A DNA stretch of 64,000 nt from an uncultured Selenomonadales bacterium (GTDB lineage: Bacteria > Bacillota > Negativicutes > Acidaminococcales > Acidaminococcaceae): contig ONAN01000001.1 in assembly GCA_900315805.1 (NCBI GenBank), positions 62,001-126,000 of the forward strand, written 5' to 3'. The position numbers and the translations under genes are program-made. Shown here one piece after another: positions 1 to 18,611 of the stretch. The notes beneath the pieces are model-generated. The model was not told where the DNA came from. It saw only the letters and a program-made list of their open reading frames with translations, and ran no database searches. The stretch's first letter is position 1; each line of letters begins with the position of its first letter.

Positions 1-180
1 CTTAATAGGGAATACCGGTGTGAATCCGGAGCAGTCCCGCTACTGTAACAGGGAGCCTGCCGCAATCTGCCATTGGGAAACCGAGAAGGCGCGGCAAGGC
101 GGTGAACTGAAGCCAGGAGACCTGCCTGAAAGAGGGAACCATCGTACCTACGGGAGATAGGGAAGTGGCTGTTCAGGCAG
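1..180 (+). promoter_or_regulatory. Cobalamin (B12) riboswitch, 5' end cut by the window
   Basis: The first 130 bases carry the conserved cobalamin aptamer blocks: an AATCCGGAGCAGTCCCGCTACTGT-like core (about 24-48) and the B12 box around 109-126 (GAAGCCAGGAGACCTGCC). The 5' strand of the closing helix lies before position 1. Past the aptamer, CTGCCTGAA at 122-130, which overlaps the end of the B12 box, is perfectly complementary to TTCAGGCAG at 172-180, so a helix that competes with the aptamer is possible just ahead of the terminator at 185. The element precedes cobU and should reduce transcription of the cob operon when adenosylcobalamin is plentiful. Confidence 0.93.
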
Positions 181-264: not shown

Positions 265-852
265 ATGGGAGCGAAAGCCGAAATCGTATTGGTATTGGGA
301 GGCGCCCGCAGCGGCAAAAGCGAGTTCGCCGAGACCTATGTCCTCCATGCCGGGGCCTGCTGCGGCTATGTCGCCACGGCGGAAATCCTGGACGAGGAGA
401 TGCGCGAACGGGTGCGCCTGCACCGGGAACGGCGCGGCAAACGCTGGCTGACCTTCGAGGCACCGTACCACGCGGAAAAGGTGCTGCCCGAGGCGGGGCA
501 GCGGACCGACGCCATCCTTTTCGATGACATCACGATCTATCTGTCCAACCTGCTGTACGGCAAGGAGGCGCTGCAGGGGACGACGACGGAAAAGGCGGCC
601 GCCGCGGCCCGGCGGATCGGGACCCTGCTCGAGGCGGCGCGCGCCACGGAACGGACGGTCGTCTTCGTCTCCAACGACGTGGGCGCCGGCATCGTGCCGG
701 ACAACGCCATGGCCCGGGAGTACCGGGACATTGCGGGCTGGGTGAACCAGCAGATCGGGGCGGCGGCGGACAAGGTCTTCTATGTCATCGCCGGCCAGGC
801 CGTGGACATCAAGCGCCTGGCGTTCCGTTTCGATGAGACGGCAAAGCCCTGA
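265..852 (+). CDS. cobU: Adenosylcobinamide kinase / adenosylcobinamide-phosphate guanylyltransferase (CobU)
   Basis: CobU phosphorylates adenosylcobinamide and then transfers GMP to it, giving the GDP-cobinamide used by CobS. The 195-residue product has the family P-loop GGARSGKS at residues 12-19. It also has a histidine in the VRLHRERRGKRW stretch, where the family carries its guanylylated His, then the LFDDITIYLSNLL strand-helix and the VSNDVGAGIVP motif. Length is normal for the family. The ATG at 265 was chosen because AAAGGAG lies 7 to 8 bases before it; an in-frame ATG at 190 would fall inside the terminator. It is the first gene after the B12 riboswitch and leads a five-gene nucleotide-loop operon. 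Function is known from the family; regulation is inferred from the upstream riboswitch. Confidence 0.95.
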   Translation: MGAKAEIVLVLGGARSGKSEFAETYVLHAGACCGYVATAEILDEEMRERVRLHRERRGKRWLTFEAPYHAEKVLPEAGQRTDAILFDDITIYLSNLLYGKEALQGTTTEKAAAAARRIGTLLEAARATERTVVFVSNDVGAGIVPDNAMAREYRDIAGWVNQQIGAAADKVFYVIAGQAVDIKRLAFRFDETAKP

Positions 853-902: not shown

Positions 903-1919
903 ATGCTGGATGAATTACAGATTGCAAAACCCGATGAGGCCATCCGCCGCCATGTGCTGGCGGAATGGCGGCGGGTCCTGCCGGAAGGCGAGGAGCTGGG
1001 GGACCTGGAAACCATGACGGCCGATTACCTGGCCATGACGGACGGCAAAGGCCTGCGCGGACTGCGGCCGGTCATGCTGCTCATGTGCGGGGACCACGGC
1101 ATCGCCAAATACGGTGTCAGCGCTTTCCCCCAGGAAGTGACCCTGCAGATGATCAACGGCTACGGCCGCGGCACGGCGGGGGCGAACGTCATGGCGCGCC
1201 ACGCCGGGGCGGATGTGGTCGTCGTGGACGCCGGCACCAACTTCGACCTGTCCGCGTACAAGCATGTGCGGCAGTGCAAAGTGGCCTGGGGCACGGACGA
1301 TTTCACGCAGGGACCGGCCATGACGGCGGCGCAGGCGGAACAGGCCCTGCGCGTCGGCATGAAGATTGCCAACGAAGCCATCGACGGTGGCTGCAATATA
1401 TTGGAAACAGGGGAAATGGGCATTGCCAACACGACCTCGACGGCGGCCATCGCCGCCGCCTTCCTCGGCCTGACGCCCGAAGAGACGACGGGCCGCGGCA
1501 GCGGCATCAATGACGAGCGCCTGCGGATCAAGACGGACGTCGTCCGCAAGGGCCTGGCCGTGAACAAACCCGTCCGCGGCGACGGCTTCGACATCCTCTG
1601 CAAAGTCGGCGGCTACGACCACGCGGGCCTGGCGGGCATGATCCTCGCCGGGGCGGCCCGCCACGTACCGACCATGGTGGACGGCGTCAATGCCACGGCG
1701 GCAGCCCTGCTGGCCTACGGCATCAACCCGGCCTGCGCCGGCTACCTGCTCTGTTCCCACCTGTCTTCCGACCTGAGCCACCGGAAGATGCTCGAAGTGC
1801 TGGGCCTCAAACCGATTGTGGACGCCGGTATGCGCCTGGGCGAAGGAACGGGCGCCAATGTGGCCATGAGCATCCTGCGCACGGCCCTCAACACATACCG
1901 GACCCTGACGCAGGCTTGA
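903..1919 (+). CDS. arsA: CobT-family phosphoribosyltransferase, ArsA-like catalytic subunit
   Basis: CobT enzymes transfer phosphoribose from nicotinate mononucleotide to the lower-ligand base of cobamides. The 338-residue protein has GDHG at 63-66, GEMGIANTT at 170-178, GRGSGI at 197-202 and the catalytic glutamate in MRLGEGTGA (Glu314, equivalent to Glu317 of Salmonella CobT). The N-terminal KPPGSLGRLE motif of ordinary CobT is not recognisable: the matching region reads LPEGEELGDLE. A second CobT homologue in the same operon (2863-3744) has the opposite pattern. Paired, complementary CobT homologues in Negativicutes are known as ArsA and ArsB, a heterodimer in Sporomusa ovata that activates phenol and p-cresol. 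The CobT family is certain; the ArsA assignment is inference. A GGAAGGAA site precedes the ATG. Confidence 0.82.
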   Translation: MLDELQIAKPDEAIRRHVLAEWRRVLPEGEELGDLETMTADYLAMTDGKGLRGLRPVMLLMCGDHGIAKYGVSAFPQEVTLQMINGYGRGTAGANVMARHAGADVVVVDAGTNFDLSAYKHVRQCKVAWGTDDFTQGPAMTAAQAEQALRVGMKIANEAIDGGCNILETGEMGIANTTSTAAIAAAFLGLTPEETTGRGSGINDERLRIKTDVVRKGLAVNKPVRGDGFDILCKVGGYDHAGLAGMILAGAARHVPTMVDGVNATAAALLAYGINPACAGYLLCSHLSSDLSHRKMLEVLGLKPIVDAGMRLGEGTGANVAMSILRTALNTYRTLTQA

Positions 1920-1929
1920 AGGTGAACGT

Positions 1930-2820
1930 ATGGAAGACGCAACGAAACAGGAAACCAAACCGGAGGACCTGAAGAAGAAGGGCACGGAAGTGGAAGAGGA
2001 GACAGGCTGGCTCAGCCATCTCTATCTGCACCTGCCGTCCCGGTCCACGGGACCCTTCCGCTATGTGCGGGACTTTTTCACGTGCCTGGAATTTCTGACG
2101 CGCATCCGCGTCACGAAGCGCGATGTCTGGTTCCCCGACGATTTCGCCCGGTCCGTCCCTTTTTTCCCATTGGCCGGCCTGGTCATGGGCCTTCTGATGT
2201 GGGCGGCCCTGGCCGTCGCGACGCGGCTCCGCTTCAGCGGGCTGCTCTTGGGAATCTTCCTGGTGCTGGCCGAACTGTTCTTTATCGGCACCCTGATGTA
2301 CGACGGATTCATGGACACGTGTGACGGCATTTTCAGCGCCCGCACGCGGGCCCGCAAACTGGAAATCATGCAGGACAGCCACGTCGGCGCCAACGCGGTC
2401 ATCGGCGCCATCGTCCTGATCCTGACGAAAGCGGCCCTGTTCAGTGTCCTGCCCCTCTTGGGCAGCGGCCTGACCCTGGTCGTCATGTACGTGTTCACGC
2501 GCACCCTGATGACGGTCTACATACTGGCGTTCCCGAACGCGCGGCCCGGCGGCTTGGGCGAAATGTTCAAGCAGGGCGGCCGGCCCTGGTACATGTGGGC
2601 GGCCATCGTCGCGGCCATCGCCCTCATCACAGGCCTGGCCGGACCGTATCATCTCCTGATCTGCGGCGTGACCGCCATCGTCTGCCTGCTGCTGGCCCTG
2701 TGGGTCCGCTCCGTGCTGGGCGGCCTGACGGGAGATACATTCGGTTTCCTGACGGAACTGGGGGACATCCTCTTTTTACTGATCCTGTTCTGCGTGGTAC
2801 GCGACACGCTGCCGTTCTGA
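1930..2820 (+). CDS. cobS: Adenosylcobinamide-GDP ribazoletransferase (cobalamin synthase, CobS)
   Basis: CobS is an integral membrane enzyme that joins GDP-cobinamide to the alpha-riboside of the lower ligand. The 296-residue protein has the Asp-rich metal/substrate motif DGFMDTCDG at 125-133 followed by the family stretch SART and MQDSHVG, and alternating hydrophobic segments to the C-terminus. Residues 1-40 form a charged, lysine- and glutamate-rich extension that I do not associate with typical CobS. The gene starts 11 bases after the ArsA-like gene ends and sits between the two CobT homologues, so all three are probably co-translated parts of the same pathway. If the CobT pair makes a phenolic riboside, this CobS must accept it as substrate; that is inference. 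Confidence 0.93.
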   Translation: MEDATKQETKPEDLKKKGTEVEEETGWLSHLYLHLPSRSTGPFRYVRDFFTCLEFLTRIRVTKRDVWFPDDFARSVPFFPLAGLVMGLLMWAALAVATRLRFSGLLLGIFLVLAELFFIGTLMYDGFMDTCDGIFSARTRARKLEIMQDSHVGANAVIGAIVLILTKAALFSVLPLLGSGLTLVVMYVFTRTLMTVYILAFPNARPGGLGEMFKQGGRPWYMWAAIVAAIALITGLAGPYHLLICGVTAIVCLLLALWVRSVLGGLTGDTFGFLTELGDILFLLILFCVVRDTLPF

Positions 2821-2862
2821 CGGAACAGGGAACGACTGACGGAAAGAAAAGAAGGTTGAACA

Positions 2863-3744
2863 ATGCATATTGAAGAATTGGCGACACAGATCATCCCGTT
2901 GAGCCGCGAGCTGGAGGCGGCGGCCCAGAAACGGTTCGACAGCCTCATCAAACCCGTGGGCTCCCTGGCCATGCTGGAAGAAATGACCTCGCGCTACGCG
3001 GCCATCCTCGGCTCGTCGGACAAGCAGCTCGTCGTGGTCCCGGAAGTGCGGCTCCTCATGCTGTGGGGCACGGAAGCCCACAAGGACCGGATTGAATCCA
3101 TCATGCTGGGCGAGGCACCCGTCCTGGCCCTGGCCGGCCAGGTGCATGCCAAGGTGCTGCCCCAGTTCCTGACCAGTGACAATACCTACGACCTGGTCGA
3201 GGAAGGGGCCATGCTGACGAGCGAATACGTGAACGAGGAAAAGGCGGGCATCCTCTGCCAGGGAAGCCTTTCCCCGTCGCCGCTGCCGGAACGCTGGCAG
3301 CCGCTGCTGGCCGAAGAGGACGGCCTCAAGTTCCTGGAAAAGGTGAACTGCCCCGAAATCAGCGCCATGTGCGGCTCCATCCTGCAGGCGGCAGGCATGC
3401 GCATCCCCGTCATCCTGGACGGCGTGGCGACCTGCGTGGCCGCCGCGGCCGCGTCGAAATTCAACGCCGCCGTGCTGCAGTACTGCTATGCCGGGGCCCA
3501 GTCGGAAGAGGCAGGGGCAGAGGAAATCCTCCGCTTCCTCGGCCTCAAGGCGCCCCTCAAGCTGCACCTGAAGGACAGCCGCGGCAACGGTGCTCTGACC
3601 GCCCTCAATGTGTTCGATGCCGGCGTCAAGGCGTACCGGGAGATGGAAACGTTCCAGGAAGCAGGCGTCCACGAGGAAGAGGAAGCCTATTCCCTGAAAG
3701 TGCAGGAAGAGAAGAAACAGGAGGCGCATCACCATCATGGCTAA
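2863..3744 (+). CDS. arsB: CobT-family protein lacking the catalytic Glu, ArsB-like subunit
   Basis: This 293-residue protein is a second, diverged CobT homologue. It keeps the N-terminal motif as LIKPVGSLAMLEE (KPVGSL at 30-35), which the partner gene at 903 lacks. At the position of the catalytic LGEGTGA it reads DSRGNGA, so Arg240 replaces the glutamate, and the GDHG motif is replaced by LWGTEAHKD. It therefore looks inactive alone and complementary to the first protein, as in the ArsAB heterodimer. The C-terminus carries about 35 charged residues ending in four histidines, possibly metal binding. It follows cobS by 42 bases and overlaps the next gene by 8. A frameshifted cobT is unlikely, because both homologues are near full length and open. 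Subunit pairing is inferred. Confidence 0.75.
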   Translation: MHIEELATQIIPLSRELEAAAQKRFDSLIKPVGSLAMLEEMTSRYAAILGSSDKQLVVVPEVRLLMLWGTEAHKDRIESIMLGEAPVLALAGQVHAKVLPQFLTSDNTYDLVEEGAMLTSEYVNEEKAGILCQGSLSPSPLPERWQPLLAEEDGLKFLEKVNCPEISAMCGSILQAAGMRIPVILDGVATCVAAAAASKFNAAVLQYCYAGAQSEEAGAEEILRFLGLKAPLKLHLKDSRGNGALTALNVFDAGVKAYREMETFQEAGVHEEEEAYSLKVQEEKKQEAHHHHG

Positions 3745-4366
3745 ACTGTATCTGATCCGCCACGGCGAGACGGATTACAACACGACATACCGTTTTCAGG
3801 GCCAGTCGGACATTCCCCTGAACAAGACCGGCAAAAAGCAGGCCGGCCAGCTGGCGGCCTTTTTCCGCGGCATCCCGCTGGACGCCATCTACTGCAGCAG
3901 CCTGGACCGGGCCCAGGAAACAGCGAAGACCATCGCCAAGGCCAAAGGCCTGAAACCGGTCGCCCTGGACGCCTTCCAGGAACTGAGCTTCGGGGAGTGG
4001 GAAGGCCTGACCGGCGAGGAAATCCAGAAGCAGTACGCGAAGGAATGGAAGGACTTTTTCGCCAATCCCGCCGACACCATGATTCCGGGCGGCGAAAGCA
4101 TGAACGATGTCCAGAAGCGCGCCTATCCGGCCCTGCGCAAGATCCTGGAGAAGCATCCCCAGGGCGATGTGGCCCTCGTGGCCCACGGCGGCATCCTGCG
4201 CGTCCTGATCTGCACCATGCTGGGCATGGACCTGAACCGCACCTGGCACCTGCACGTGGGGAACGCTTCCACGACATGCTTCTACTACTGGGGGAATTCC
4301 TACACGCTGGAATATGCCAACATGACATACTATCTGGACCAGCCGTCCCTGGAACTGGAAATCTGA
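3737..4366 (+). CDS. cobC: Histidine phosphatase family protein, probable alpha-ribazole phosphatase (CobC-like)
   Basis: A 209-residue phosphoglycerate-mutase-superfamily phosphatase. The phosphohistidine motif is LIRHGETDYN with Arg8-His9-Gly10, and the second catalytic histidine lies in VALVAHGGILR near residue 152. Its place as last gene of the cob operon, overlapping the ArsB-like gene by 8 bases, suggests it removes the 5'-phosphate from the lower-ligand ribotide or from the cobamide phosphate. The superfamily is broad and sequence alone does not separate CobC from other small-molecule phosphatases, so the specific role rests on context. Confidence 0.8.
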   Translation: MAKLYLIRHGETDYNTTYRFQGQSDIPLNKTGKKQAGQLAAFFRGIPLDAIYCSSLDRAQETAKTIAKAKGLKPVALDAFQELSFGEWEGLTGEEIQKQYAKEWKDFFANPADTMIPGGESMNDVQKRAYPALRKILEKHPQGDVALVAHGGILRVLICTMLGMDLNRTWHLHVGNASTTCFYYWGNSYTLEYANMTYYLDQPSLELEI

Positions 4367-4411
4367 CCGGCCCTGTGTTAACAGATTGCAGCAGGATGTA
4401 TCATACTATGT

Positions 4412-4477
4412 AACAAATTCCGCAAAATCCCCCTCTTTGGGAAGAGGCAGGAAATGCCGCAAATTTGTTCAATTTTT
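4412..4477 (+). terminator. Candidate terminator of the cob operon
   Basis: AACAAATT at 4412-4419 and AATTTGTT at 4462-4469 form a perfect inverted repeat enclosing a smaller hairpin (CCTCTT-TGGG-AAGAGG), followed by CAATTTTT. The stem is AT-rich with large internal loops, so strength is uncertain. Confidence 0.4.
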
Positions 4478-4537
4478 ACGAAATCACTCAGCTTTCCTTA
4501 AATGTGTATACTTATTTCTAAGGAAGATAAAATTTCG

Positions 4538-4565
4538 TTGACAAAAAGTCTTTTTCTGTTATACT
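4538..4565 (+). promoter_or_regulatory. Promoter of the zinc-ribbon gene
   Basis: TTGACA (4538-4543), a 16-base spacer and TATACT (4560-4565). Transcription would start near 4572 and leave a leader of about 120 bases before the ATG at 4694. Confidence 0.75.
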
Positions 4566-4655
4566 CACTTTAGAGTATCTCTAGGCTGGCTTGATAGTGA
4601 ATCGCCTTTAAACGTAACATCATGTGAAGTACGGAAGCGGTGCATTGAGAGTTTG

Positions 4656-4682
4656 CTCCTATGGGGTAACAAGAAAAAGGAG
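4656..4682 (+). promoter_or_regulatory. Possible anti-Shine-Dalgarno hairpin in the leader
   Basis: CTCCT at 4656-4660 is complementary to the AGGAG ribosome binding site at 4678-4682, with a 17-base loop. Pairing would hide the ribosome binding site of the zinc-ribbon gene. Only five base pairs are seen, so it may be chance. Confidence 0.3.
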
Positions 4683-4693
4683 TGTAGATCAAG

Positions 4694-4990
4694 ATGTATG
4701 AAGACAAGACCCTGAAGTGTGTTGAATGCGGTGATGAATTCGTTTTCTCCGCTTCCGAACAGGAATTTTATGCTGAAAAAGGCTTCACCAACGAGCCGAA
4801 GCGCTGCCCGAAATGCAGAGCCGCCCGCAAAGCCCGCATGAACGGAACCCAGCCCCGCCAGATGTACAAAGCCGTCTGCGCAGACTGCGGCAAGGAAACG
4901 GAAGTACCGTTCCAGCCTTCCGATGACCGTCCCGTTTACTGCTATGACTGCTTCATCAAGCGCAGAAACAAGAGAAGCCACGAAGAATAA
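4694..4990 (+). CDS. Small double zinc-ribbon protein (CxxC...CxxC family)
   Basis: A 98-residue protein with four CxxC pairs: Cys9/12, Cys38/41, Cys62/65 and Cys83/86. These make two probable treble-clef or ribbon zinc sites joined by a basic stretch (residues 42-58), and the C-terminus (IKRRNKRSHEE) is also basic. Proteins with this pattern are widespread in Firmicutes and other bacteria, with no established function that I know; the basic, zinc-bound fold suggests nucleic acid or ribosome contact. The gene is monocistronic: it has its own strong promoter at 4538, an unusually long leader, and a strong terminator 10 bases after the stop. That layout and the good ribosome binding site suggest high expression, which is inference. 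Confidence 0.85.
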   Translation: MYEDKTLKCVECGDEFVFSASEQEFYAEKGFTNEPKRCPKCRAARKARMNGTQPRQMYKAVCADCGKETEVPFQPSDDRPVYCYDCFIKRRNKRSHEE

Positions 4991-4999
4991 GGATTGTAA

Positions 5000-5026
5000 G
5001 ACCGGCTGTCCGACAGCCGGTCTTTT
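5000..5026 (+). terminator. Intrinsic terminator after the zinc-ribbon gene
   Basis: GACCGGCTGT-CCG-ACAGCCGGTC perfect hairpin followed by TTTTT. Confidence 0.95.
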
Positions 5027-5160
5027 TGTTTGCCTGCCGGCGGCCGGAATTTTAGAAATTACACCATGAAACCGTCCCCGGTGTGGTATAATATCGGTAA
5101 GAATGCCCAAATGGCAAGGCGGCCCGGAGCCGCCCGTTTTATCCCCAAGGAGGGATCCTT

Positions 5161-6042
5161 ATTTTACAATTTAAAGATGTGGCCGTGAAAGACCGCGCCC
5201 TTTTTGAAACGTACCTGAACAAGCCGGACCATATGGGGTCCGAATGCGCCTATACGAACCTCTTCATCTGGCGCGACTATTACCATACGTGGTGGACGGA
5301 ACTGTACGGGTTCCTCGTCATCAAGGTCGAGGTGGAAGGCAAGACCTTCTTCCTGCAGCCGTTCGGCGGCAGGGACGAAGACCTGCCGCTCCTTTTGGCT
5401 GCCCTGAAGGACTACGCCGACGGTCCCTTCGAGTTCCACGGCATCTACGACAAGTCCGTGGAGCGCCTGGGCAAGGTCGTGACCGACCCCGTGTTCGAGG
5501 AGGACCGGGACAGCTGGGACTACGTGTACCTGCAGAAGGACCTGGCCACACTGGCGGGACGCCGGTACCACGGCCAGAAGAACCACTACAACGCCTTCAA
5601 GAAGGAAAACCCCGACTATACCTTTGAATTCATCAATCCGGAAAACTACGCCGAATGCCTCAACTTCGGCGAAGAATGGTGCAAGACCCGCATGGACACG
5701 GATCCCAGCATCTATTGGGAATGGCGTGCCCTGCAGGAGGCTTTCGTCAATTTCGAGGCCCTGGGCCTGCGCGGCGGCGCCATCCGCATCGGCGGCCGCA
5801 TCCAGGCTTTCGGGTTCGGCAAGGCCATCAACGACGTCATCTGCGACGAGAACGTGGAGAAGGCCAATCCGGAAATCCGCGGCCTCTACACGGCCATCCA
5901 GAAGGAATGCGCCGAAAAGGTCTGGACGGACATGACCTACATCAACCGCGAAGAAGACATGGGCAGCGAAGGGCTGCGCAAAGCGAAGGAAGCCCTGCAT
6001 CCTGCCTTCATGGTCAAGAAGTACAATCTGCTTGTGCGTTAG
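5161..6042 (+). CDS. DUF2156 (LPG-synthase C-terminal-like) acyltransferase-fold protein, apparent ATT start
   Basis: A protein of about 293 residues matching DUF2156, the GNAT-like fold related to the C-terminal domain of phosphatidylglycerol lysyltransferases. Visible family features are the N-terminal LFETYLNK helix, YTNLFIWRDYY, and the C-terminal GLRKAKEALHPAFMVKKY. Its substrate is unknown. The start is unusual: AAGGAGG at 5147-5153 is followed after 7 bases by ATT at 5161, giving (M)LQFKDVAVKD, which agrees with how such proteins usually begin. The first standard start in frame is GTG at 5179, 25 bases from the ribosome binding site; the ATG at 5177 is out of frame. The next gene begins 28 bases after the stop and is also GNAT-like, so the two may act together. 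Confidence 0.82.
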   Translation: MLQFKDVAVKDRALFETYLNKPDHMGSECAYTNLFIWRDYYHTWWTELYGFLVIKVEVEGKTFFLQPFGGRDEDLPLLLAALKDYADGPFEFHGIYDKSVERLGKVVTDPVFEEDRDSWDYVYLQKDLATLAGRRYHGQKNHYNAFKKENPDYTFEFINPENYAECLNFGEEWCKTRMDTDPSIYWEWRALQEAFVNFEALGLRGGAIRIGGRIQAFGFGKAINDVICDENVEKANPEIRGLYTAIQKECAEKVWTDMTYINREEDMGSEGLRKAKEALHPAFMVKKYNLLVR

Positions 6043-18418: not shown

Positions 18419-18433
18419 GATGATAAGTCTTTT

Positions 18434-18594
18434 GATAGAGGCGCGGTGTTTATGAGTATCCCGTGGAGAGGCATCTGGGAAGCGGGCCAAAGGAAACATC
18501 GCCGAAGGGGCCGGACCGGCGGGTTCAGTCAGCTGGGCCTGCAGTGAAGAATTGCAGGACTGTCGCCGTCAGGGCATGACGGCGGAGAGCTATC
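18434..18594 (+). promoter_or_regulatory. Lysine riboswitch (L box) aptamer
   Basis: The closing helix is GATAG (18434) with CTATC (ending 18594). Inside are the L-box conserved blocks AGAGGCGCGG, GAGTAT, the AGGAAACATCGCCGAAGG core, GGACTGTCGCCGTCA and GGAGAGCTATC. It stands between a consensus promoter and a terminator and directly precedes dapB-asd-lysC-dapA, so lysine should reduce transcription of the pathway. Confidence 0.93.
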
Positions 18595-18611
18595 TCAAAC
18601 TGCGGAACCGT

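Follow-up and report, generated by a model that had tools for sequence, protein, structure and literature searches.

Two CobT homologues of unequal length, A and B, are encoded in one cobalamin-riboswitch operon of a rumen bacterium related to Succiniclasticum, and we conclude, with a probability of roughly 80%, that they constitute an obligate heterodimeric NaMN:base phosphoribosyltransferase in which only A is catalytic, and which forms a lineage of its own beside ArsA. The pair is real and conserved, is probably functional as a pair, and probably works like ArsAB. The operon, with gene order cobU - A - cobS - B - cobC, opens the window (the whole 64-kb stretch of DNA that was analysed) and comprises the following features.

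1..143, plus strand: 3' part of a cobalamin riboswitch (Rfam RF00174, 98.6 bits), starting about 40 bases upstream of the window
265..852, plus strand: cobU, adenosylcobinamide kinase/guanylyltransferase (NCBIfam NF004469, 179.8 bits, above cut-off)
903..1919, plus strand: subunit A, catalytic CobT-family protein, ArsA-like, 338 aa (TIGR03160, 4hdk_A, tree, model)
1413..1415, plus strand: codon for E171 of A, in GEMGIANTT, equivalent to Salmonella CobT E174 (sequence, alignment)
1842..1844, plus strand: codon for E314 of A, equivalent to the general base E317 of Salmonella CobT (sequence, alignment)
1930..2820, plus strand: cobS, adenosylcobinamide-GDP ribazoletransferase, between A and B (TIGR00317)
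2863..3744, plus strand: subunit B, shortened CobT-family protein, putatively non-catalytic, 293 aa (PF02277, model)
2950..2967, plus strand: KPVGSL motif of B, residues 30-35 (alignment)
3580..3582, plus strand: codon for R240 of B, at the catalytic-Glu position (sequence, alignment)
3737..4366, plus strand: cobC, alpha-ribazole phosphatase (TIGR03162, 170 bits, above cut-off)

These coordinates and the Rfam match agree with an initial sequence-only reading of this DNA, which had placed both CobT-like genes in a single B12-riboswitch operon with cobS between them. The full riboswitch aptamer is contained in the flanking contig (L033 11961-12143, 114.4 bits). CobS scores 108.6 bits against TIGR00317 (E=4.3e-31), slightly below the cut-off of 110, and B and cobC share 8 bases at their junction. 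B terminates in a histidine-rich stretch (HHHHG, window 3727-3741), a similar one being present only in its closest relative among the aligned B proteins. Elsewhere in the window lies a lysine riboswitch (18428-18600, plus strand; Rfam RF00168, 94.5 bits).

A and B score 360 and 113.6 bits, respectively, with PF02277; with TIGR03160, whose equivalog cut-off is 319.3, A lies above it at 343.5 bits and B far below at 122.8, so that B passes only the Pfam family cut-off. The PF02277 scores, together with the recurrence of a long and a short protein in genomes of the family, argue that this likeness to CobT is not due to chance. As the sequence-only reading had described, and as the alignment confirms, A keeps CGDHG (D64, H65), GEMGIANTT (E171) and E314 within RLGEGTG in the absence of KPPGSLGRLE, while B keeps KPVGSL, carries R240 at the aligned Glu position and lacks GDHG. 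The C-terminal tail is also gone from A, and both it and the KPxGSL motif are retained by B.

This reciprocal pattern extends beyond the window. We aligned 18 A and 18 B proteins of Acidaminococcaceae with 17 CobT proteins, expressing conservation as the fraction of the majority residue. The CobT proteins conserve the KPxGSL block and the tail as well as the DHG and GE.G.ANTT loops and the catalytic Glu. For the KPxGSL region, conservation is 0.50 in A versus 0.84 in B, and for the tail 0.15 (65% gaps) versus 0.79; conversely, it is 0.90 in A versus 0.21 in B for the DHG region, and 0.89 versus 0.36 for GE.G.ANTT. The catalytic Glu is present in 18/18 A proteins and is not conserved in B, from which nearly all of CobT residues 187-228 has also been deleted. 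Across the family, the K, P, G, S and L of the B motif are invariant. Loss of KPxGSL is only partial in the A proteins of many relatives, and was evidently gradual, since some (L059, L062) still have KPxxSLG. Purifying selection acts on each of the two genes, with NG86 dN/dS values of about 0.10-0.11 in A and 0.13-0.22 in B.

Each protein is predicted with high confidence to fold like CobT. The model of A (pLDDT 94.2) aligns with ArsA and bacterial CobT chains at TM-scores of about 0.9, and that of B (pLDDT 93.3, pTM 0.89) with ArsAB and bacterial CobT chains at 0.73-0.79. Among solved structures, the best match of A is Sporomusa ovata ArsA (4hdk_A, E=9.7e-77; Thermus thermophilus CobT, 1.1e-59). 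For B, the matches to CobT and ArsB are of similar strength and fall mainly in the C-terminal half and the N-terminal motif; structure searching, in which the TM-scores were nearly equal, likewise did not discriminate between ArsB and CobT.

In the Salmonella CobT homodimer, the base pocket is completed by the partner chain through its small domain, made up of N- and C-terminal parts. Formation of that pocket by both chains (PMC9561151), taken with the complementary losses in A and B, makes it the economical reading that B has been kept as the pocket-completing partner of A. By this scheme NaMN would be bound by A, and transfer would occur at the Rossmann-domain site of A via Glu171 and Glu314. 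B, catalytically dead, would bring its N-terminal KPxGSL segment and C-terminal tail to the base pocket of A, a role modelled on the Salmonella enzyme, in which each subunit contributes to its partner's pocket; the proposed contacts between A and B are argued from the same analogy. The product would be the alpha-ribotide of a lower-ligand base, destined for de novo cobamide synthesis. A supporting precedent is provided by natural single-chain A-B fusions within the related ArsAB lineage.

The source genome (2.0 Mb, 98% complete) was searched with PF02277 for an additional cobT, and yielded no CobT-family gene beyond A and B; the earlier observation of no ordinary CobT in the operon thus extends to the genome. 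The genome also contains cbiH, on the same contig as the operon, which points to probable de novo synthesis of the corrin ring. CobT-family matches occur in 41 of 51 family genomes, nearly all as a long A and a short B, the genomes without a PF02277 match being nine of genus g2 and one other. The order cobU-A-cobS-B-cobC is found in all family loci read, apart from an extra ArsAB-type pair in genome G037, and a scan of 10 family operons matched a cobalamin riboswitch in 8. Succiniclasticum ruminis DSM 9236 and Phascolarctobacterium faecium DSM 14760 are among the named carriers of the pair. The B closest to that of the window (93%) comes from an uncultured RUG-series genome, and no mobile or viral copies of B were found in viral contigs. 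Three MAGs titled Acholeplasmataceae (L186, L187, L189) carry an operon of the Acidaminococcaceae type, and are probably mislabelled.

Methylmalonyl-CoA mutase is present in 40/51 family genomes and is missing, like the pair, from all nine g2 genomes, a co-occurrence that would fit the use of cobamides in succinate-to-propionate metabolism. Outside the window, one mutase copy is in three pieces (G000 C12:169575-170989), reflecting frameshifts or assembly errors, and another (G000 C2 3049-4572) is an open frame. Succiniclasticum and Phascolarctobacterium live on succinate, and with these as the named relatives the amino-acid fermenter initially envisaged is not supported.

The phylogenetic position of A separates resemblance to ArsAB from membership in it. 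A tree of A-type and CobT proteins contains two sister clades: clade I (100/100) includes ArsA of S. ovata and Veillonella, the ArsA halves of A-B fusions and the second pair of G037, and clade II (100/98) includes the window A, its family and families f2 and f6, its deepest member being a complete CobT-like protein of family f22 (L142). The sequence-only reading had proposed a heterodimer of the ArsAB type. Its functional part stands, in that the losses are complementary, a heterodimer with A as catalytic subunit is probable, and the closest solved structure to A is ArsA; its genealogical part is not supported, as A groups in the sister clade outside ArsA, while B fits CobT profiles above the ArsB profile and is left unplaced by trees. 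The proposal is thus partly supported: the pair would act like ArsAB, with a catalytic subunit from outside the ArsA clade. An AU test rejected the grouping of degenerate A proteins as a single clade without the complete f22 protein (p=0.0067), which, with the position of that protein at the base of clade II, implies that decay of A was probably independent in the two clades. In the heterodimer that we favor, the degeneration of A would be separate from that of ArsA, within a sister lineage. Since the A lineages are sisters, a single ancestral heterodimer is nonetheless possible, provided that the ends of the complete f22 protein were lost and later recovered.

Within clade I, single-chain fusions of ArsA with a shortened ArsB form open frames of 626-773 aa (L091, L092, L093, L094, L145, L146) in three families of the class (f17, f9 and f10), and numerous further open frames span about 570-840 aa. 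Genome G037 possesses both a pair of the window type (L065) and a Sporomusa-type ArsAB pair (L066), each with its own cobalamin riboswitch, which suggests non-redundant roles.

As to the base that is transferred, phenol or p-cresol is possible, although we would place it slightly below an even chance; adenine or scavenged benzimidazole are the alternatives. A p-cresol-bound Salmonella CobT variant carries S80Y/Q88M/L175M (per PDB entry titles). In E. coli numbering, nearly every member of each group has M88 and M176, ordinary Firmicutes CobT included. Position 80 is Y in 26/26 clade I proteins; clade II has either F, as in the window A, or Y there, and so do most CobT; position 84 is T in 24/26 of clade I, and V in clade II and CobT. 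Reading the substrate from positions 80, 88 and 176 was accordingly abandoned, as they do not discriminate the groups. With phenol-linked residues largely common to ordinary Firmicutes CobT, sequence does not settle the base.

Single-family searches of the genome for base-synthesis genes revealed no BluB above cut-off, no Bza (the only ThiC scores above the cut-off for thiamin ThiC, not above that of BzaB) and no ThiH- or HydG-level matches; the genome thus shows no known internal source of p-cresol or benzimidazole. Self-synthesis of p-cresol, a product of tyrosine fermentation, is not supported by these searches. Adenine has an internal source, and environmental p-cresol could be scavenged. 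In the portions of the literature available, nothing relevant to the cobamides of Succiniclasticum or Phascolarctobacterium was found. The mutase of Veillonella parvula binds diverse cobamides and that of S. meliloti binds phenolyl cobamides well in vitro (PMC6759758), so that a mutase-using organism could use either kind.

Among competing explanations, the one that survives best regards the pair as a heterodimeric CobT acting on adenine or benzimidazoles, in which B descends from the canonical CobT found after cobS in relatives and A from a second CobT copy; we regard it as a serious contender that falls somewhat short of even odds. It draws on the f22 operon (L142, genome G202, 2553-5433), where cobS follows the gene of a complete CobT-like protein of clade II and precedes a canonical CobT, cobC lying farther along; this matches the layout in the window. 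The canonical CobT occupies the slot after cobS in which B stands, and this operon is likely a picture of the state preceding decay in the window pair. B also fits CobT profiles best (for 20/20 B proteins, one or more CobT profiles outscore the ArsB profile), its union with Negativicutes CobT is not rejected in the AU test (p=0.445, with long B branches; union with clade II, p=0.17, likewise), and adenine is always available, in a genome with no BluB above cut-off and no Bza, ThiH- or HydG-level match. Against this, trees from full and trimmed columns are compatible with all three placements of B, whose branches are long; two CobT-type genes in one f22 operon suggest that the A lineage already had a distinct substrate; and the absence of synthesis genes carries little weight, given that a cell may scavenge free bases. 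A broader evolutionary proposal follows similar lines: in Negativicutes, CobT may have given rise to obligate heterodimeric base-activating enzymes on at least two occasions, each time through complementary decay of the same kind. One would be ArsAB and another the cobS-split pair, with B derived from the operon's canonical CobT and base specificity possibly differing from that of ArsAB. We hold this tentatively, at a little under one half.

Unlikely, by comparison, is that the pair is a true ArsAB orthologue, in which a single ancestral duplication gave A and B and which makes phenolyl or p-cresolyl cobamides. The sister relationship of A to the ArsA clade, its best solved match to ArsA and its ArsA-like residues Y92 and N267 are consistent with such descent, and AU tests do not reject a single clade of B and ArsB (p=0.636 and 0.436, with long B branches); ecologically, phenolyl cobamides are reported to make up 20-34% of rumen (bovine) and 16% of human faecal cobamides, with only S. 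ovata and V. parvula confirmed as producers (PMC8123684). However, A does not fall in the ArsA clade, and its own clade has a complete CobT-like protein as deepest member, a point on which the AU rejection bears directly; V84, V101 and G319 of A are CobT-like; B lacks the DGPGA tail of ArsB and prefers CobT profiles, whereas degenerate ArsB relatives score far higher with the ArsB profile; and G037 maintains both kinds of pair under separate riboswitches. Finally, it is highly improbable that B is a mere remnant without function, leaving A to act alone as a homodimer: B has indeed lost the catalytic core and CobT stretch 187-228, but an open B gene is present in essentially every family genome having A, with dN/dS of 0.13-0.22, an invariant KPxGSL, a strongly conserved tail and a confident predicted fold.

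If the heterodimer of A and B uses phenolics, Succiniclasticum and Phascolarctobacterium become candidate phenolyl cobamide producers; if not, the pair would show that phenol chemistry does not necessarily follow from a split CobT. Two parallel decays would also constitute a natural test of how a shared-site homodimer becomes an obligate heterodimer. ArsAB has been predicted in 27 species, almost all Negativicutes, by a rule calling for adjacent cobT genes and discarding products of <300 or >800 aa (PMC6461909). The window pair escapes this rule, as cobS intervenes and B has 293 aa; because the rule misses both this type and single-chain fusions, predictions of cobamide structure may be wrong for gut bacteria that are common.

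Of the systems known, ArsAB of S. ovata (PDB 4HDK-4HDS), a NaMN:phenol/p-cresol phosphoribosyltransferase, is the obvious counterpart. It likewise consists of two CobT homologues that have decayed unequally, A without the KPxGSL signature and tail and B keeping them fully or partly, and the window pair shares its defining trait of complementary losses with a complete catalytic site only in A. The two A proteins are 41-43% identical over the fold. The window B, in contrast, has 293 aa to the 350 of ArsB, lacks part of the mid-fold and the DGPGA tail, and has Arg where ArsB keeps Glu at the catalytic position; the window A falls in a separate sister clade, and cobS separates the genes. V. parvula also belongs to the Negativicutes and has a heterodimer-type pair with its ArsA in the ArsA clade, but additionally has CobT and makes p-cresolyl cobamide (PMC9600662, PMC8123684), whereas the window genome has only the pair. 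Canonical CobT (TIGR03160; the Salmonella/E. coli homodimer) resembles the window pair in fold, in the catalytic residues of A, in its cobU and cobS neighbours and, by analogy, in a base pocket formed by two chains. It unites both halves of the site, core and small-domain motifs alike, in a single homodimeric protein; neither A nor B does so, and in the window these halves are split over two genes.
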